IMG/VR virus record: IMGVR_UViG_3300025030_000164
Coordinates: 1 to 47,847 of that record
Direction: 5' to 3' (one strand)
DNA from: a virus
Length of the DNA stretch: 47,847 nucleotides
Part shown: in pieces, positions 89 to 38,361 of the stretch
How positions within the stretch are numbered: the first letter of the stretch is position 1
Layout: each line of letters opens with the position of its first letter
The notes under the pieces: model-generated
What the model saw: only the letters and a program-made list of their open reading frames with translations
What the model was told of the DNA's origin: nothing
Database searches by the model: none
Position numbers and translations under genes: made by a program

Positions 89-168
89 GCAATCTGTGCT
101 CTACTGCCGCGCAACAGGTGCTCAGGGGTAGAGTAACGGGTGCTCCGGCAGTAGCGCAACCCGTGCTC
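89..168. repeat. array of four iterons, candidate replication origin
   Basis: Four 13-base copies of the pattern G(C/T)AA-NNN-GTGCTC on the plus strand lie at 89-101, 111-123, 133-145 and 156-168. Start-to-start distances are 22, 22 and 23 bp, about two helical turns, so all copies face the same side of the DNA. This is the classic layout of initiator-binding iterons. The last copy touches the stop codon of the HTH gene (167-454), whose product is an obvious candidate binder. The inverted repeat CTACTGCCG/CGGCAGTAG (102-110 and 146-154) brackets the middle two copies. The origin role is inferred. Confidence 0.7.
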
Positions 169-454
169 ACCCTCGTTTCTTTTTCTCGTATCGGGGCAAC
201 GAAATATCGTAAAGGTTTGATGTTCCGACTCTGTGTTGAACCTTGATATATCCACTTTCCCTCAGTTCCTTCAAGGCAGAAACGACAGAGCGGCGGGAGT
301 ATCCGGTTGATCTTGCGAGCGTGTATGTTGACGGGAACAGCTTGCCCGATTGCCCGTTGCGCTGTCCAACGAGTTGAAACAGAACGTGCCGGGCTATGGG
401 CGTAATTTGGAGTTCGCCGTATGTAACGGCGTTCCATAAGTCGAAGGGTCTCAT
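167..454 (-). CDS. winged-helix/HTH DNA-binding protein, possible replication initiator
   Basis: 95 aa. Residues about 20-75 read as a winged helix of the HTH_36 type often found in phage and plasmid replication proteins: an initial helix (ITPIARHVLFQLV), a recognition-type segment (STYTLARSTGYSRRSVVSALKEL) and a wing (SGYIKVQ). The tail is very basic. Start ATG at 454 is preceded by AGAGGA at good spacing. The gene is the last of the leftward unit before the iteron array, and its stop lies inside the fourth iteron. It has its own promoter (549-577) and a pseudoknot leader, so its expression is probably set separately. It could be the iteron-binding initiator or a repressor; the fold assignment is firmer than the role. 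Confidence 0.85.
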   Translation of the reverse strand: MRPFDLWNAVTYGELQITPIARHVLFQLVGQRNGQSGKLFPSTYTLARSTGYSRRSVVSALKELRESGYIKVQHRVGTSNLYDISLPRYEKKKRG

Positions 455-464
455 GTCGTATCCT

Positions 465-512
465 CTTAAGCGTTAGCCTTGAGGGGGAGTGAACGCTTAA
501 GTAACACTCCCC
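465..512 (-). promoter_or_regulatory. H-type pseudoknot in leader of HTH gene
   Basis: In the leftward RNA the order is GGGGAGTG (512-505), TTA, CTTAAGCGTT (501-492), CACTCCCC (491-484), nine bases, AACGCTTAAG (474-465). The first and third segments pair over 8 bp and the second and fourth over 10 bp, all Watson-Crick. The helices are crossed, with loops of 3, 0 and 9 nt, a standard H-type pseudoknot. The second helix ends where the ribosome-binding AGAGGA begins, 10 bases before the start codon, so folding should affect initiation. As DNA, the 10-bp arms could also be an operator. Confidence 0.7.
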
Positions 513-527
513 ACTCGTGGCAGGATT

Positions 528-541
528 CCGGCGGGAGCCGG
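528..541 (-). other. 5'-end hairpin of HTH-gene transcript
   Basis: CCGGC-TCCC-GCCGG forms a perfect 5-bp hairpin at or near the predicted transcription start of the promoter at 549-577. Such 5' hairpins commonly protect mRNA from 5'-end-dependent decay; that role is inferred. Confidence 0.5.
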
Positions 542-548
542 TCTCACG

Positions 549-7576: not shown

Positions 7577-7752
7577 CTTTCCTCCTCCTGTTCGCAGCAT
7601 CGAATGGCTGTATCGCGGTTGATCGCATCTTCGCGGTCGGCTTGTAGAAGCATGAATGCGGTTGTCAGCAGCGTATTCTCAGCCTTCAATAAACGCCCGT
7701 AATCTTTAAGCCACGCGAGGTTGCCGTCAATGATAGTTCGGTCTTGCGTCAT
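7564..7752 (-). CDS. small helical hypothetical protein
   Basis: 62 aa, one long amphipathic helix by composition (WLKDYGRLLKAENTLLTTAFMLLQADRED), with a cysteine-containing tail (RCCEQEEERCCL). ATGA-coupled to the HTH gene upstream. No family recognised. Confidence 0.75.
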   Translation of the reverse strand: MTQDRTIIDGNLAWLKDYGRLLKAENTLLTTAFMLLQADREDAINRDTAIRCCEQEEERCCL

Positions 7753-7976
7753 TTCCCCCTCCTTTCGGCCATAGCGCGGCGGATCATGGCCTCGCTGTTT
7801 TCCGACAAGATGGTATGACCGCGCATTAACCGGCTGATTGTCGGCTCTGTCAACCCCACAGCGGCGGCGAACCGACGCTGCGAGACCAACCCGCTGACTT
7901 TTCTTAGACAGCCGAGTTCAAGAGCAGCCTCTTTGATGAACCGCCGCTGTGCGTGTAACTGTTGTAACTTAATCAA
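7749..7976 (-). CDS. Cro/CI-like (XRE) HTH regulator
   Basis: 75 aa from TTG 7976 with AGGA seven bases upstream; a longer GTG reading to 8039 would translate the leader hairpin and is rejected. Residues about 30-70 form an XRE-type HTH: VSQRRFAAAVGLTEPTISRLMRGHTILSENSEAMIRRAM, split as helix 2 (RRFAAAVG), turn (LTEP), recognition helix (TISRLMRG) and helix 4. It is the first gene behind promoter 8068-8096, so it may repress the early promoters, including its own. No integrase is seen, so a lysogeny role is not shown. Confidence 0.85.
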   Translation of the reverse strand: MIKLQQLHAQRRFIKEAALELGCLRKVSGLVSQRRFAAAVGLTEPTISRLMRGHTILSENSEAMIRRAMAERRGK

Positions 7977-7995
7977 TTTTGTTCCTGTAAAAATG

Positions 7996-8062
7996 TTGAC
8001 GGGGCGGGGCGGGGAGTTGAACCCCTGCCGCGCGCGCACCTAACCGCAGGCCGCCCCGTCAA
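7996..8062 (-). promoter_or_regulatory. structured leader with T-arm-like hairpin upstream of XRE gene
   Basis: A perfect 12-bp helix joins TTGACGGGGCGG (8062-8051) to CCGCCCCGTCAA (8007-7996). Inside it lies GGGG-TTCAACT-CCCC (8025-8011), whose 7-nt loop fits the tRNA T-loop consensus TTCRANY closed by G-C. There is no room for an anticodon arm, so this is not a complete tRNA. The helix begins at about the predicted +1 of the promoter at 8068-8096. Confidence 0.6.
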
Positions 8063-8067
8063 TGTCA

Positions 8068-8096
8068 AATATAATCTAATCGCAATCCGATGTCAA
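8068..8096 (-). promoter_or_regulatory. sigma-70 promoter for leftward early operon
   Basis: TTGACA (8096-8091), 17 bp, TATATT (8073-8068) on the minus strand. It lies just behind the stop of the gene at 8123 and before the XRE regulator. The segments TTGACATNNGATTGC and a GACATTG after the -10 recur at promoter 11430-11458, so both may share an operator. Confidence 0.8.
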
Positions 8097-8122: not shown

Positions 8123-8449
8123 TCAAGATTTCCTGCGATCTGACTTGCGGCGGTCTTGGAAACGGCGATCCGATTCAACCCACTCCCCGTTGCGAAGTTC
8201 ATACACCCTCCCGCCGTCGCCTACTCGCTGCCTGAACGCTATCCCGGGGCGACTCATTGCTCTTGCGAATGGGATGCCGTTGAGCCAGCCCCCTGTTTCC
8301 AAGCGGTCTGAGTGCGCATAATCGGGGGCTGTTTTGCGCCAAAAGTATTCGCCACCATACGCAAACGCCTGCCTCCACGATGACGCGGCGACGTAGTAGT
8401 CCCATCCGTCGCCCTCGTGGTGAAACGCATACACGCGGAGTCGCTTCAC
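8123..8449 (-). CDS. hypothetical protein
   Basis: 108 aa, aromatic-rich N-terminus (RVYAFHHEGDGWDYYVAASSWRQAFAYGGEYFWR) suggesting a compact alpha/beta fold. The C-terminus is a very basic repeat (DRRFQDRRKSDRRKS) that may bind nucleic acid. ATGA-coupled to the upstream gene. No family recognised. Confidence 0.8.
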   Translation of the reverse strand: MKRLRVYAFHHEGDGWDYYVAASSWRQAFAYGGEYFWRKTAPDYAHSDRLETGGWLNGIPFARAMSRPGIAFRQRVGDGGRVYELRNGEWVESDRRFQDRRKSDRRKS

Positions 8450-8649
8450 TTTCCCTCCGCTTCTTCGATGAGGCGGTCGAGGAGGGCGATTGCGCCCTCA
8501 GCGCGGCAAACATCATCCCACTCCGAGTCCTCCGATGCCTTCCCTTTAGCCCATAACTTCGCCATGTCAAAGCCCTCTATCGCTGAATTTTTCTCCCCCT
8601 CATACTCTACCTTGAACTCCCTCAGCCTTTCGACGGTGATTGCGCTCAT
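8446..8649 (-). CDS. small helical hypothetical protein
   Basis: 67 aa, acidic and helical (ITVERLREFKVEYEGEKNSAIEG, RAEGAIALLDRLIEEAEGK). ATG 8649 has AAGGAAG five bases upstream. It is read leftward away from the divergent ncRNA promoter at 8681. Confidence 0.75.
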   Translation of the reverse strand: MSAITVERLREFKVEYEGEKNSAIEGFDMAKLWAKGKASEDSEWDDVCRAEGAIALLDRLIEEAEGK

Positions 8650-8680
8650 TTCATCTTCCTTGATGTTTTTGTAAAACCAC

Positions 8681-8709
8681 TTGACTTTGGGCGGTTACTT
8701 ACGTATATT
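8681..8709 (+). promoter_or_regulatory. sigma-70 promoter of small plus-strand RNA
   Basis: TTGACT (8681-8686), 17 bp, TATATT (8704-8709), pointing against the surrounding early genes. The 9-bp inverted repeat TTTGGGCGG (8686-8694) / CCGCCCAAA (8752-8760) flanks the -10 and start site and touches the -35, so it may be an operator. Start of transcription expected near 8714-8717. Confidence 0.8.
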
Positions 8710-8713
8710 CTCA

Positions 8714-8815
8714 CGGAGTGATGATACGAGCATCACCAACATACGCTTTCGCCGCCCAAACTTGGGTAAAGATTAGCCTGTTGAAGCTCGTATCTTCGGC
8801 AGGCTTTTCTTTTTG
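8714..8815 (+). ncRNA. small RNA with two kissing hairpin loops
   Basis: Bounded by the promoter at 8681 and the terminator at 8775-8815; it has no convincing reading frame. Hairpin 1 is GTGATG-(ATACGAG)-CATCAC (8718-8736). Hairpin 3, the terminator stem, is AGCCTGTTGAAG-(CTCGTAT)-CTTCGGCAGGCT (8775-8805). The two 7-nt loops are perfect reverse complements, so they can form a 7-bp loop-loop helix within one molecule or between two. A weak middle hairpin CCCA/TGGG lies at 8755-8766. Complementary 7-nt loops are the arrangement used by ColE1 RNAI/RNAII. Function unknown; not a family I recognise. Confidence 0.75.
8775..8815 (+). terminator. intrinsic terminator of the small RNA
   Basis: A 12-bp stem (two G-U pairs) with a 7-nt loop is followed at once by TTTTCTTTTT. 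This is the clearest factor-independent terminator in the window. Confidence 0.85.
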
Positions 8816-9267
8816 CTTGCCCGGCCAGTTTGCCATCCATTTCTCTGCCGACTCAACTGAAATGCGCTCCCGTCATAGTTGCAGGGTTTAGCGAAAAGAA
8901 AACACCGACACCCCGCAGGATAGAGGCGGCCCAACAGCCGCCGAAGGGATTTGCAAAGGGCTTAACGCGAATTGGACTCCTCACGGATTCAGGACGCGCC
9001 GACTGAAGGATTACCCCCGACCGATTCTGCCCGGGGCGAAGGTCAAGAGCCTGCCTAATGCAACCGATGCCACCACCATAAGCGACCCCTGCAATGTCAA
9101 CTCGTGAGGCCATAGCCTGCTTTCCCTTGCTGGAGAGTGGGAAGGGGGAATACCCTCCACCACCTAACCTTGCCCGCGCCGAAAGAGGGGCTTGAGTTGG
9201 AAGGGGATCTCGCCTCAACCCGATACCCCACAGACAAGACTCCCCTCATGATTACCCGATTCCGATG
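8816..9267. other. 450-bp stretch without a convincing gene
   Basis: Open frames exist on the minus strand (a 120-codon frame, 8853-9218, with an internal ATG near 9111, and a 50-codon frame from about 9249), but they lack good ribosome sites, their codon use differs from neighbouring genes and their products resemble no family. The DNA is rich in inverted repeats, e.g. GGCGGC-ccaaca-GCCGCC near 8924-8942 and CCCCG/CGGGG near 9016-9037. It may be a structured RNA, a decayed repeat or a poorly conserved gene. I cannot decide from sequence alone. Confidence 0.4.
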
Positions 9268-9546
9268 TCACTTCAGCCCCGCCTTTGCCTTACGCGTCGG
9301 CTTCGGGACCGCGCCGTGACCGACGAACTCGAAGCTGTCGGAGCAGTTTACCGTCACCGTTACGAAGTCCCTGTGCGATATTTCACTTTCGGGGGTGATT
9401 TCCACTGGGCGTGGTTCTGTCCACTTGTCCCCGTCGTCTATGCAGATTAAGCAAGCCTTGTCACTCCCAGTATAGGCAAGGATGTAAAACTCGCCGTCCC
9501 GGATGTGCCTGTAAACGTCTCCGAGTTTATGTGTTCGTGCTTCCAT
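9268..9546 (-). CDS. hypothetical protein
   Basis: 92 aa with beta-rich composition (EFYILAYTGSDKACLICIDDGDKW, RDFVTVTVNCSDSFEFVGHG), suggesting a small barrel or sandwich. The C-terminal tail is basic (KPTRKAKAGLK). AAGGA lies seven bases before ATG 9546. No family recognised. Confidence 0.8.
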   Translation of the reverse strand: MEARTHKLGDVYRHIRDGEFYILAYTGSDKACLICIDDGDKWTEPRPVEITPESEISHRDFVTVTVNCSDSFEFVGHGAVPKPTRKAKAGLK

Positions 9547-11871: not shown

Positions 11872-11967
11872 CAAACTCCCTTCAAATTGCCCTCTTTAAT
11901 CGGCGGGGCGTTGCCCGTGGGAAGGCTTTGGACTCCCCTTGTGGTTTAACGGGGCCGACGCCCCGCC
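11872..11967 (-). promoter_or_regulatory. GC-rich leader hairpin, possible pseudoknot over ribosome site
   Basis: GGCGGGGCGT (11967-11958) pairs with ACGCCCCGCC (11911-11902), 10 bp perfect. The loop contains CAAAGCCTTC (11930-11921), able to pair with the ribosome-site segment GAAGGGAGTTTG (11883-11872) as 5 plus 4 bp with an unpaired step. The order is again crossed, but the second helix is weaker than in the other leaders. Confidence 0.5.
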
Positions 11968-11984
11968 CCGCCCCTCACCTCACT

Positions 11985-12500
11985 CTATGCGACCGACGAC
12001 TTGCACAGATTGACGCGGTGTCCGTCCTTGCTCCACACTCCATAGAACTTCCGCCCGTCCTTAGCTTCGGGGTGAGCGGCGTAAAAGGATATAAGCGCAT
12101 TCACAGCCTCAATCTCATCCGGCCGTAGCCATCCGCGCCGCTCTGCCATCATTGCCCGCTCGACGACGCGCCAATTCCCCGTTGTCCTGCCCGGCATTGA
12201 CTCGCAGCCAGACATTACAACCTTTGTCTCCATGTTTAGGAGTTGCTCTTGACGGCGATGCAGCCAGTTGAACCTTGCGACAGCCGCCGCGCCCGGCTCT
12301 TTCCCTTTAACAAATACAGCCGTCACATGGCCAAGAGTCACATAAGACTCCTTGAGTTTCGGTTCCCGGCGGAGTATCACGTTCCACTCCGATAGCCAAC
12401 CTTTAATTGGCATGGTGGCAAGGAGAGCAGCCTGCTCTTGGCCGATTGAGAGACGCTTGGCTTTGATTGATCCCAGCACCCCGCTCCGTCTTTCATTCAT
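11985..12500 (-). CDS. first leftward early gene, hypothetical
   Basis: 171 aa from ATG 12500 with AGGAG eight bases upstream (a GTG at 12509 is the alternative). Basic overall. Pieces: GSIKAKRLSIGQEQAALLATMPIKGWLSEWNVILRREP, VTLGHVTAVFVKG, FNWLHRRQEQLLNMETKVVMSGC and a C-terminal WSKDGHRVNLCKS. It is the promoter-proximal gene of the leftward unit, so it is made first; early host-takeover or regulatory roles are possible but unproven. The leader forms a pseudoknot (12530-12635). Confidence 0.8.
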   Translation of the reverse strand: MNERRSGVLGSIKAKRLSIGQEQAALLATMPIKGWLSEWNVILRREPKLKESYVTLGHVTAVFVKGKEPGAAAVARFNWLHRRQEQLLNMETKVVMSGCESMPGRTTGNWRVVERAMMAERRGWLRPDEIEAVNALISFYAAHPEAKDGRKFYGVWSKDGHRVNLCKSSVA

Positions 12501-12529
12501 TATTCGCACTCCTAACTCCCTTCAAATTA

Positions 12530-35844: not shown

Positions 35845-36732
35845 ATGGCGCTGCACTACATACCCACCTCCTCGCGGGTTCCGGGAAGGTTAAGGGACAA
35901 CATTGAAATACTTGATGAGGCGCTGTATCAAGTCAGCCTGACGGCGGGTGCGCCCGGCCCGCAAGGTGAACAAGGCGCAACGGGCGCTCAGGGCATTCAA
36001 GGTATCCCCGGCAATGACGGGGGGCAGGGGCCGCAAGGCATTCCCGGTAACAACGGGGCTGACGGAAATGACGGCGCTCAGGGAGGGCAGGGAATACAAG
36101 GGGTTCCGGGCAATGATGGAGCACCCGGCGTGGATGGGGACGATGGCGCTCAGGGGCCTGCTGGCCCCGCGCCTTCTGGAAACGGTATCATTACTGTCAC
36201 CAACGGGGTGCTTGACACTCCGCTCGCGTTTCCCGGCGGCACATCTACGTTTCTGCGGGCTGACAGGTCGTTTGCCGCACCGCCCGGCGGCGGGATTACG
36301 ACGCTGAAAAAGACCGCCGACCAGATTATCAACGGGACGGCCTTTCAGAACATAACCGATCTGACGTTCCCAGTGTCGGCCAACACCGATTACGCCTTTG
36401 ATTTCTACATCACGTTCAGGTCAACGACAGCAACCGGATTTAGGTTCAGCGTGAACGGCCCCGCCGGAGTGGTGGACTTCTTTATGACGTATCAGACCAT
36501 AGCCAATTCCGAGACTGTCGGCGTGGCAACGTGGCTGCAAAAACACAGCGTTACATTTAATGCCATGACAGTAACGGCGGCTTCGATTGCGGCGGGGGTT
36601 GACCTGCATTGCCGGATTACAGGCCGGTTTAAGTGCGGCGGGTCGGGCGGAACATTCGCGGCAATAGTTGCCAGCGAGTCGGCTAACAATGATCTCGTGG
36701 TTCAAAGGGGCAGTTGGGGAACGTATTTTTAA
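35845..36732 (+). CDS. collagen-like tail fibre
   Basis: 295 aa. Residues about 32-112 are Gly-X-Y collagen repeats (e.g. GPQGEQGATGAQGIQGIPG) with few breaks, which would form a trimeric rod. The N-terminal 30 residues probably anchor to the tail; the C-terminal 150 residues are a beta-rich globular head (TNF/C1q-like in shape) likely to bind the host surface. Starts immediately after the giant gene's stop. Confidence 0.85.
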   Translation: MALHYIPTSSRVPGRLRDNIEILDEALYQVSLTAGAPGPQGEQGATGAQGIQGIPGNDGGQGPQGIPGNNGADGNDGAQGGQGIQGVPGNDGAPGVDGDDGAQGPAGPAPSGNGIITVTNGVLDTPLAFPGGTSTFLRADRSFAAPPGGGITTLKKTADQIINGTAFQNITDLTFPVSANTDYAFDFYITFRSTTATGFRFSVNGPAGVVDFFMTYQTIANSETVGVATWLQKHSVTFNAMTVTAASIAAGVDLHCRITGRFKCGGSGGTFAAIVASESANNDLVVQRGSWGTYF

Positions 36733-36745
36733 CAAAGGAAACACA

Positions 36746-37375
36746 ATGAAACTCAGACTCACTCTCATCGCCGTCATGCTGGCGGTAAACAGTTGGGCGG
36801 CTCCTCTCTATCCGACCGATGCAGATCGTTGGGGAAAGCTGCGCAACAGTAGCGTTGACCATCTGACTGCCGCACAGCATTCCCCTCTCATTTACGAGGG
36901 AACACTGACGTTGGACGTTGCCACAAAGGACACGACAGAGTGGATGTTGGCCGGATTTGTGGTGGATGGAGACGCAGAACCAAGCGACGTTGATTGGGTG
37001 ACCCTTCATGCCCCGCGCTACGCCACGTTGTTCATTGCCGGAGTATCGGCAGGGGATAGCGTTATGCTCTCGCTGGTGTTGATGCAACAGGCATTTGACA
37101 TAAACCCTGACGATCCTGATACCGACATTTACTGGCGAAATGCGAACGGGATGGATTCGGTGGTTTTTGAGGGGGCAGATGACTCCGACTTCTTCAATGT
37201 CTGGCAGTTTGAGGACTACCCCGCCAATGCCGAGACTGCCTACACGTGGGACACCTACTGGCAGGCATACCCGATTCAGATGCTTGCGCCGGGCTATATC
37301 CGCTTTATTATGAACGGGTTTGCTGGCGTGGTGGACGACACAGTAATTTCGTGGAAGCTGGTGCTGATATACTAA
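36746..37375 (+). CDS. exported protein, unknown function
   Basis: 209 aa from ATG 36746 (AGGAAA upstream). Signal peptide KLRLTLIAVMLAVNSWA with a cut before APLYPTD. The mature protein is acidic and beta-rich (YEGTLTLDVATKDTTEWMLAGFVVDGD). Its place in a tail gene cluster suggests a surface or virion appendage. Stop shares a base with the next start. Confidence 0.75.
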   Translation: MKLRLTLIAVMLAVNSWAAPLYPTDADRWGKLRNSSVDHLTAAQHSPLIYEGTLTLDVATKDTTEWMLAGFVVDGDAEPSDVDWVTLHAPRYATLFIAGVSAGDSVMLSLVLMQQAFDINPDDPDTDIYWRNANGMDSVVFEGADDSDFFNVWQFEDYPANAETAYTWDTYWQAYPIQMLAPGYIRFIMNGFAGVVDDTVISWKLVLIY

Positions 37376-38361
37376 TGCACTGGCTAATTGGAATACTGAC
37401 GGTTGCGTCCTTAGCGCAACCATTCGGGCGTGAGCCGTTTGGCCGTGAACCGCTCGGTCGCGGTGCATTTGGACGGTCAACGCAGCCGGCGGCTGAGGCG
37501 GCGGCGTATGTGGGGATACTGGACTCGTTGGCGGCGGTGGGGGAGGCCGTTCTGGGGGACTCGACCGGGGCATGGTGCGTAATAGAGAGACTGACCGTCA
37601 ACTACACCGGTGCGCTGTTCAGAGTAAGACGGGTCTCTGATGATGCTGAGGCCGACATTCCCTATGTTGCTGCAACAGGCAAGGTCAACCTTGACTCGCT
37701 GAACTCGTTTCTCAGTGCAACGACGGGGAAATATGTAAAAATTTACGAACAGATCGGGGGAAACGACCTTGTGCAGGCGACGGCGGCAAATCAGCCGGAC
37801 GTAACGCTTACGTCTCACGGCATTTATCCGTCGCTGACATTCCTGCTCGCCACAGTCCAATACATGTCGGTGGCCTCGACTTCATTTGGGAACGTTTCGA
37901 CAGGTGATGTAACTAACGTGGCAGTTACGAAGTCATCGAAGAGTGACGGGGCTATTCACCTTATCATCAGCAAGGTGGCTACGAGCGGCTCTGTAAATGG
38001 CTGGAATCTTGGGTTTGACGCGAATGAAAAGACGAGGGGGCTGGCGCGGACAGGGGGGAATGCGGCGGTCGCCACCGGCCCAACGGGCGTTTGCGACGGC
38101 AACTGGCGGACGCTTACCGGAACATTTGAGACTGCTGACGATTCCTCAAAGGCCTATCTTGATAATGGGGTGTTAGCAGGCGGCGGGGCGAACGCCTTAG
38201 TTACAACACTGACAAACGCGGCGGCGGTAACGATTGGGGCGGCGGCGAACGCGAACCTGCCTATGACCGGCAACGCTGTTATGTATTTTGTCTGCGCGGG
38301 CACTCAACCCGGTTCAATAACACGGGCGGGGTTAGCCGCTCACTTTGCGGGGCTTGAATGA
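37375..38361 (+). CDS. tail protein with arabinofuranosidase-B-like lectin domain
   Basis: 328 aa from ATG 37375 (TAATG overlap). N-terminus is hydrophobic (HWLIGILTVASL), followed by a repetitive linker QPFGREPFGREPLGRGAFGRS. Residues about 50-150 match the alpha-L-arabinofuranosidase-B-type sandwich found in many phage tail proteins: FRVRRVSDDAEADI, then LNSFLSATTGKYVKIYEQIGGND, split, and QPDVTL. The rest is a LamG-like sugar-binding fold. Probable receptor-binding protein or depolymerase relative; catalytic activity cannot be judged. Confidence 0.8.
   Translation: MHWLIGILTVASLAQPFGREPFGREPLGRGAFGRSTQPAAEAAAYVGILDSLAAVGEAVLGDSTGAWCVIERLTVNYTGALFRVRRVSDDAEADIPYVAATGKVNLDSLNSFLSATTGKYVKIYEQIGGNDLVQATAANQPDVTLTSHGIYPSLTFLLATVQYMSVASTSFGNVSTGDVTNVAVTKSSKSDGAIHLIISKVATSGSVNGWNLGFDANEKTRGLARTGGNAAVATGPTGVCDGNWRTLTGTFETADDSSKAYLDNGVLAGGGANALVTTLTNAAAVTIGAAANANLPMTGNAVMYFVCAGTQPGSITRAGLAAHFAGLE

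Follow-up and report, generated by a model that had tools for sequence, protein, structure and literature searches.

A predicted small RNA with mutually complementary hairpin loops lies opposite the early genes of a soil phage

A soil phage carries, on the plus strand of an otherwise minus-strand early region, a predicted small-RNA gene that we tentatively read as most likely specifying an antisense (counter-transcript) RNA encoded in cis to the early operon. The loops of its two main hairpins are complementary to one another, an unusual twist for an antisense small RNA. The window analysed here is the whole stretch of 47,847 nt (IMG/VR record IMGVR_UViG_3300025030_000164). If real, the element would be a further phage antisense RNA, from a lineage for which hardly any relatives are known, and would serve as a compact natural system in which to study kissing loops that are complementary to each other. 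At stake is whether cis kissing or homodimers can give an antisense RNA self-protection, a means of tuning its termination, or a threshold. The features on which the argument draws are as follows.

8446-8649, minus strand: 67-aa early gene, with an upstream mRNA segment exactly complementary to the small RNA
8681-8709, plus strand: sigma-70-type promoter of the predicted small RNA, from the sequence (TTGACT at 8681-8686, 17-bp spacer, TATATT at 8704-8709)
8686-8694: left arm of a 9-bp perfect inverted repeat, TTTGGGCGG
8716-8813, plus strand: predicted small RNA of about 98 nt, from sequence and fold
8718-8736, plus strand: hairpin 1, a 6-bp stem of GTGATG and CATCAC around the 7-nt loop ATACGAG (8724-8730)
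8720-8734, plus strand: 15-nt unit, GATGATACGAGCATC
8752-8760: right arm of the 9-bp inverted repeat, CCGCCCAAA
8754-8767, plus strand: small, weak linker hairpin, GCCCA and TGGGT around AACT, from the fold
8775-8805, plus strand: intrinsic terminator, a 12-bp stem of AGCCTGTTGAAG and CTTCGGCAGGCT around the loop CTCGTAT (8787-8793)
8783-8797, minus strand: inverted copy of the 15-nt unit, GAAGATACGAGCTTC

The start of the small RNA was placed 7 nt past the -10 box, which puts hairpin 1 at nucleotide 3 of the predicted RNA, and its end was taken from the T tract. Two G-U pairs in the terminator stem, formed on the plus strand only, and a T-rich tail reaching 8814 point to plus as the terminator's strand. 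The minimum free energy (MFE) fold of the small RNA (-35.7 kcal/mol, z = -4.1 to -4.6) shows both main hairpins, and the promoter, hairpins, loops and positions given in a preliminary description of this DNA agree exactly with the sequence. No good open reading frame was found on the plus strand within the small RNA (coding score -6.4 bits); a leaderless ATG/GTG frame beginning in it was rejected, as its score is that of non-coding sequence and it extends beyond the terminator. The spacing of the promoter, the 5' hairpin and the strong terminator is as expected, which supports a candidate short-RNA gene. The proposal of a roughly 100-nt RNA directed against the early genes is thus borne out at the level of sequence features, with about 98 nt on the plus strand and the genes on the minus strand.

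The promoter itself belongs to a set used by this phage, TTGAC(A/T)-17-TA(T/C)ATT, of which it is the sole plus-strand member. The 17-bp spacing recurs identically, together with TATATT-like -10 boxes, in four to five other phage promoters, located as follows.

577 and 8096, minus strand: early promoters, TTGACA-17-TATATT
11122, minus strand: early promoter, TTGACT-17-TATATT
11458, minus strand: early promoter, TTGACA-17-TACATT
45657, minus strand: early promoter, TTGACA-17-TATGTT

The loops ATACGAG and CTCGTAT are perfect reverse complements over 7 nt, and the match grows to 9 nt when the closing pairs are included (GATACGAGC at 8723-8731 with GCTCGTATC at 8786-8794). For two 7-nt loops drawn at random, the probability of a full match is about 6e-5, and shuffling the window leads one to expect 0.03 cases per strand of a hairpin and terminator whose 7-nt loops are complementary. 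The corresponding expectation for a promoter scoring 9/12 or better, with a strong terminator no more than 220 nt away, is 0.05 per strand. When units of this promoter-terminator type were sought in 1.35 Mb, comprising the window with exonuclease-related and other viral loci, five were found including the one described here; it alone has a 10/12 promoter, the other four scoring 9/12, and it alone has a loop match longer than 4 nt. The loop complementarity is far beyond chance. These figures have to be read knowing that the small RNA was picked after a search of many windows for oddities, and this selection, with the fact that the element is a singleton lacking relatives, is what speaks for there being no functional RNA at all, just a promoter-like and a terminator-like sequence paired by chance. 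The joint statistics and the membership in the phage promoter set argue against such a coincidence, which we rank as the least probable of the readings considered.

The fit between the loops is explained by the relation of the hairpins, which are inverted copies of a single 15-nt unit; the inverted copy of any hairpin automatically carries a complementary loop. An inverted repeat of 13/15 whose arms lie 20 nt or more from each other arose in 1 of 400 shuffles of the RNA. The sole difference between the copies is in the second stem pair, T-A in one and A-T in the other, a compensatory change that keeps the stem. This suggests that the hairpins have been retained, as a single case distinct from phylogenetic covariation. 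A 9-bp perfect inverted repeat further encloses the -10 box and hairpin 1, with an inner pair of CGTAT (8702-8706) and ATACG (8741-8745), and this arrangement accounts for the strong fold of 8681-8813 on both strands (z = -5.0 on plus, -5.3 on minus).

The automatic nature of the loop match also lends itself to a different account, in which the two inverted 15-bp copies are protein sites in the DNA, a phage repressor loops the DNA between them, and the RNA loops never kiss. The loop centres of the two hairpins lie 63 bp apart, or 6.0 turns of 10.5 bp, and an HTH protein is encoded nearby (7749-8039, minus strand). We nevertheless find this very improbable: the compensatory change preserves a hairpin, the second copy is built into the stem of a terminator, whose G-U pairs are of use in RNA alone, and no extra copy lies near other phage promoters, the count being five matches with up to 3 mismatches against 3.3 expected.

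The repeat gives the RNA a second possible fold. Its 30-nt arms (8720-8749 and 8768-8797) are 73% complementary, and in transcripts truncated at 8792-8804 the 5' hairpin pairs with the 5' half of the terminator at -23 to -30 kcal/mol. The terminator fold wins from about 8808 (-30.8 kcal/mol), once its 3' arm has emerged, and in the finished RNA it stands at -35.9 against -30.3 kcal/mol for the alternative, 5.6 kcal/mol better. An influence of the kissing loops on termination, as had been proposed, is therefore plausible, with truncated transcripts favouring the alternative fold for as long as the 3' arm of the terminator is missing. The same preference of transcripts ending at 8792-8804 for the long pairing, and the complementarity of the arms, would fit an attenuated leader, that is, a short plus-strand RNA with its end at 8813, except when the 5' hairpin acts as antiterminator by pairing with the 5' half of the terminator. 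Regulated read-through would then oppose the early genes or reach the late genes past 12.9 kb. This reading appears improbable to us, given the advantage of the finished terminator fold and the lack of a convincing plus-strand gene within 4 kb downstream; moreover, an upstream complement of any terminator 5' arm yields a switch on paper.

The genomic setting points to the antisense reading. Between about 12.5 and 0.9 kb the genes lie on the minus strand, including those for exonuclease VIII and the HTH protein, and the small RNA sits between a 92-aa gene (9268-9546) and the 67-aa gene, both minus. Although the preliminary description had found nothing nearby obviously antisense to the RNA, this proved wrong: if the early transcript reads through, the mRNA upstream of the 67-aa gene holds, at 8813-8716, the exact complement of the whole small RNA. 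Read-through across 8650-9267, from the genes at or beyond 9268 to the gene at 8649, is assumed here. No minus-strand promoter of at least 9/12 was found between 8650 and 9268, so the overlap between RNA and mRNA depends on this read-through.

We propose that an early-type promoter, pointed against the early operon, would produce an RNA of about 98 nt ending at the intrinsic terminator. Early mRNA running into the 67-aa gene would carry the complement of both hairpins, and kissing between the loops of the RNA and the mRNA could nucleate a duplex, leading either to its cleavage or to refolding of the leader. The mRNA side of the element is as structured as the RNA side (z = -5.3). About 67 nt separate the small RNA from the start codon of the gene at 8649, whose RBS (AAGGAAG, about 8653-8660) therefore lies outside the RNA, and direct RBS blocking is not seen. 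The predicted openness of this RBS rises from 0.39 to 0.63 when the complementary segment is removed from the fold, a small and model-dependent shift that hints, weakly, at a possible effect of pairing on translation. A role in controlling replication, host genes or a defence system, which had also been raised, found no support here.

What the self-complementary loops would add to the antisense RNA is less straightforward, since they would hinder rather than help a simple one. Pairing of the two loops, in cis or as a dimer, was part of the earlier proposal and is well supported as a possibility by the sequence features, and we estimate that the 38-nt linker is sterically long enough for kissing in cis. 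Such pairing, within one molecule or between two, would keep the 5' hairpin bound to the terminator and would compete with recognition of the target. During synthesis, to judge from the folding energies, it could start the alternative fold and delay the terminator. A stronger version of this idea is a riboregulator born of inverted duplication, in which kissing loops, in cis or as a homodimer, toggle the RNA between a self-protected and an mRNA-binding state, or tune its termination, thereby placing early gene expression under concentration-dependent control. We consider this version rather improbable.

A less likely alternative to the cis-antisense RNA is a trans-acting small RNA, whose loop or loops or linker would pair with other phage or host mRNAs while loop complementarity masks or protects the seed. 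The anatomy is typical of such RNAs, with a 5' hairpin, a linker and a U-tailed terminator, and a 10-bp pairing is possible between the terminator loop plus flank (TCGTATCTTC) and GAGGATACGA, across the SD and spacer of the gene at 167-454 (minus strand). However, the best pairing with RBSs within the phage is not significantly better than that of shuffled controls, 36 of 300 of which reach it in the case of loop 2 and 274 of 300 in the case of loop 1, so a trans role would rest on host mRNAs. Pairings of the linker with phage RBSs were set aside, as they reflect its C-richness only.

Two known antisense systems share parts of this anatomy in their basic dimensions: FinP consists of two hairpins, the second of which is the terminator, and the kissing loops of ColE1 are 7 nt long. 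In position, the nearest known kind is the OOP RNA of lambdoid phages, a 77-nt RNA that is cis antisense to cII (PMC12197685). Like OOP, the phage RNA would be a short, terminator-ended transcript from its own promoter in the early region, opposed to early genes; from the sequence, both the promoter opposite the early mRNA and the intrinsic-terminator end are found. The two are unrelated in sequence, OOP opposes the cII gene whereas the phage RNA covers an intergenic segment, and the description of OOP includes no self-complementary hairpin loops (PMC12197685). In loop chemistry, the nearest kinds are FinP and ColE1 RNA I. FinP of F plasmids is antisense to the traJ leader, and kissing loops seed the pairing (PMC9977716). 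The phage RNA resembles it in being antisense to an mRNA leader and in its two stem-loops with the second as terminator, plus a weak linker hairpin, and differs in that FinP covers the RBS of its target while the phage RNA, at 8716-8813, misses the RBS at about 8653-8660. In ColE1, RNA I and RNA II kiss through fully complementary single-stranded loops (PMC11012335). There the loops that match come from two opposed transcripts, in contrast to the phage RNA, which has both on one RNA, although against its own complement it would by necessity present opposed loops of the ColE1 type. Judged by sequence, the phage RNA is not a member of OOP, FinP or ColE1 RNA I, and it is set apart by self-complementary loops on a single RNA and by a promoter inside an inverted repeat.

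Searches of phage, plasmid, viral and genome collections gave no relatives of the element. No DNA relatives were found in phages, the plasmid search gave nothing beyond a 32-nt chance match, and no viral contig contained exact hairpin 1. The pair of 9-mer loops occurred in 12 stretches of viral contigs, all without the hairpins, where about 27 were estimated by chance. No protein relatives were reached through the neighbouring gene, the 283-aa gene, the capsid, the 174-aa gene, the portal or the helicase. Relatives of exonuclease VIII yielded 14 and then 80 loci (about 30-51% identity, the best about 48-51%), none of which showed synteny at the small RNA or a similar unit. One related phage record (L065) has a short promoter-terminator unit in an early-gene gap, on the opposite strand (about 14615-14510, minus); its own loops are mismatched to each other, and its RNA happens to contain CTCGTATC. 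No Rfam family matched the element at the gathering score, nor did a whole-window search to an E value of 3 give a match on it. CyaR and rdlD were rejected, since their E values of about 6-7 amount to chance, and phi29 pRNA, the anti-CRISPR repeat RNA and the guanidine-II riboswitch were likewise set aside, having the wrong anatomy or sequence.

The early region also holds other features. Between 8650 and 9267 there is no convincing gene, and within this interval a stretch of about 420 bp in the middle of the early operon (8850-9267) has neither a convincing gene nor an RNA fold (z = +1.2 on the minus strand); it could hold an origin or control sites. A type-P5 twister ribozyme (11921-11979, minus strand; Rfam RF02684, 44.1 bits, above gathering) lies immediately 3' of the gene at 11985-12509, placing a self-cleaving RNA within the early transcript.

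Several early promoters of the set are followed by strongly folded 5' leaders that precede the first gene, none with an Rfam match. In the leader after the promoter at 577 (about 440-545, minus strand), a stem of GGGGAGTG and CACTCCCC carries the loop CTTAAGCGTT, and 10 nt of complementarity link this loop to AACGCTTAAG, immediately ahead of the SD (AGAGGA) and ATG; the two might form a pseudoknot with a role in translational control. The leader after the promoter at 8096 (about 7995-8065, minus strand) forms a long, GC-rich, branched hairpin, one arm of which, GGGGTTCAACTCCCC, looks like a tRNA T-arm; for the HTH gene 3' of it, a TTG preceded by a good SD may be the start codon instead of the listed GTG. 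Finally, likely tail proteins are encoded on the plus strand at 37246-38361 and 35845-36732. An arabinofuranosidase-like catalytic match occurs here together with a laminin-G-like match, with a collagen-repeat protein adjoining, which suggests surface or plant-type sugars as a target.
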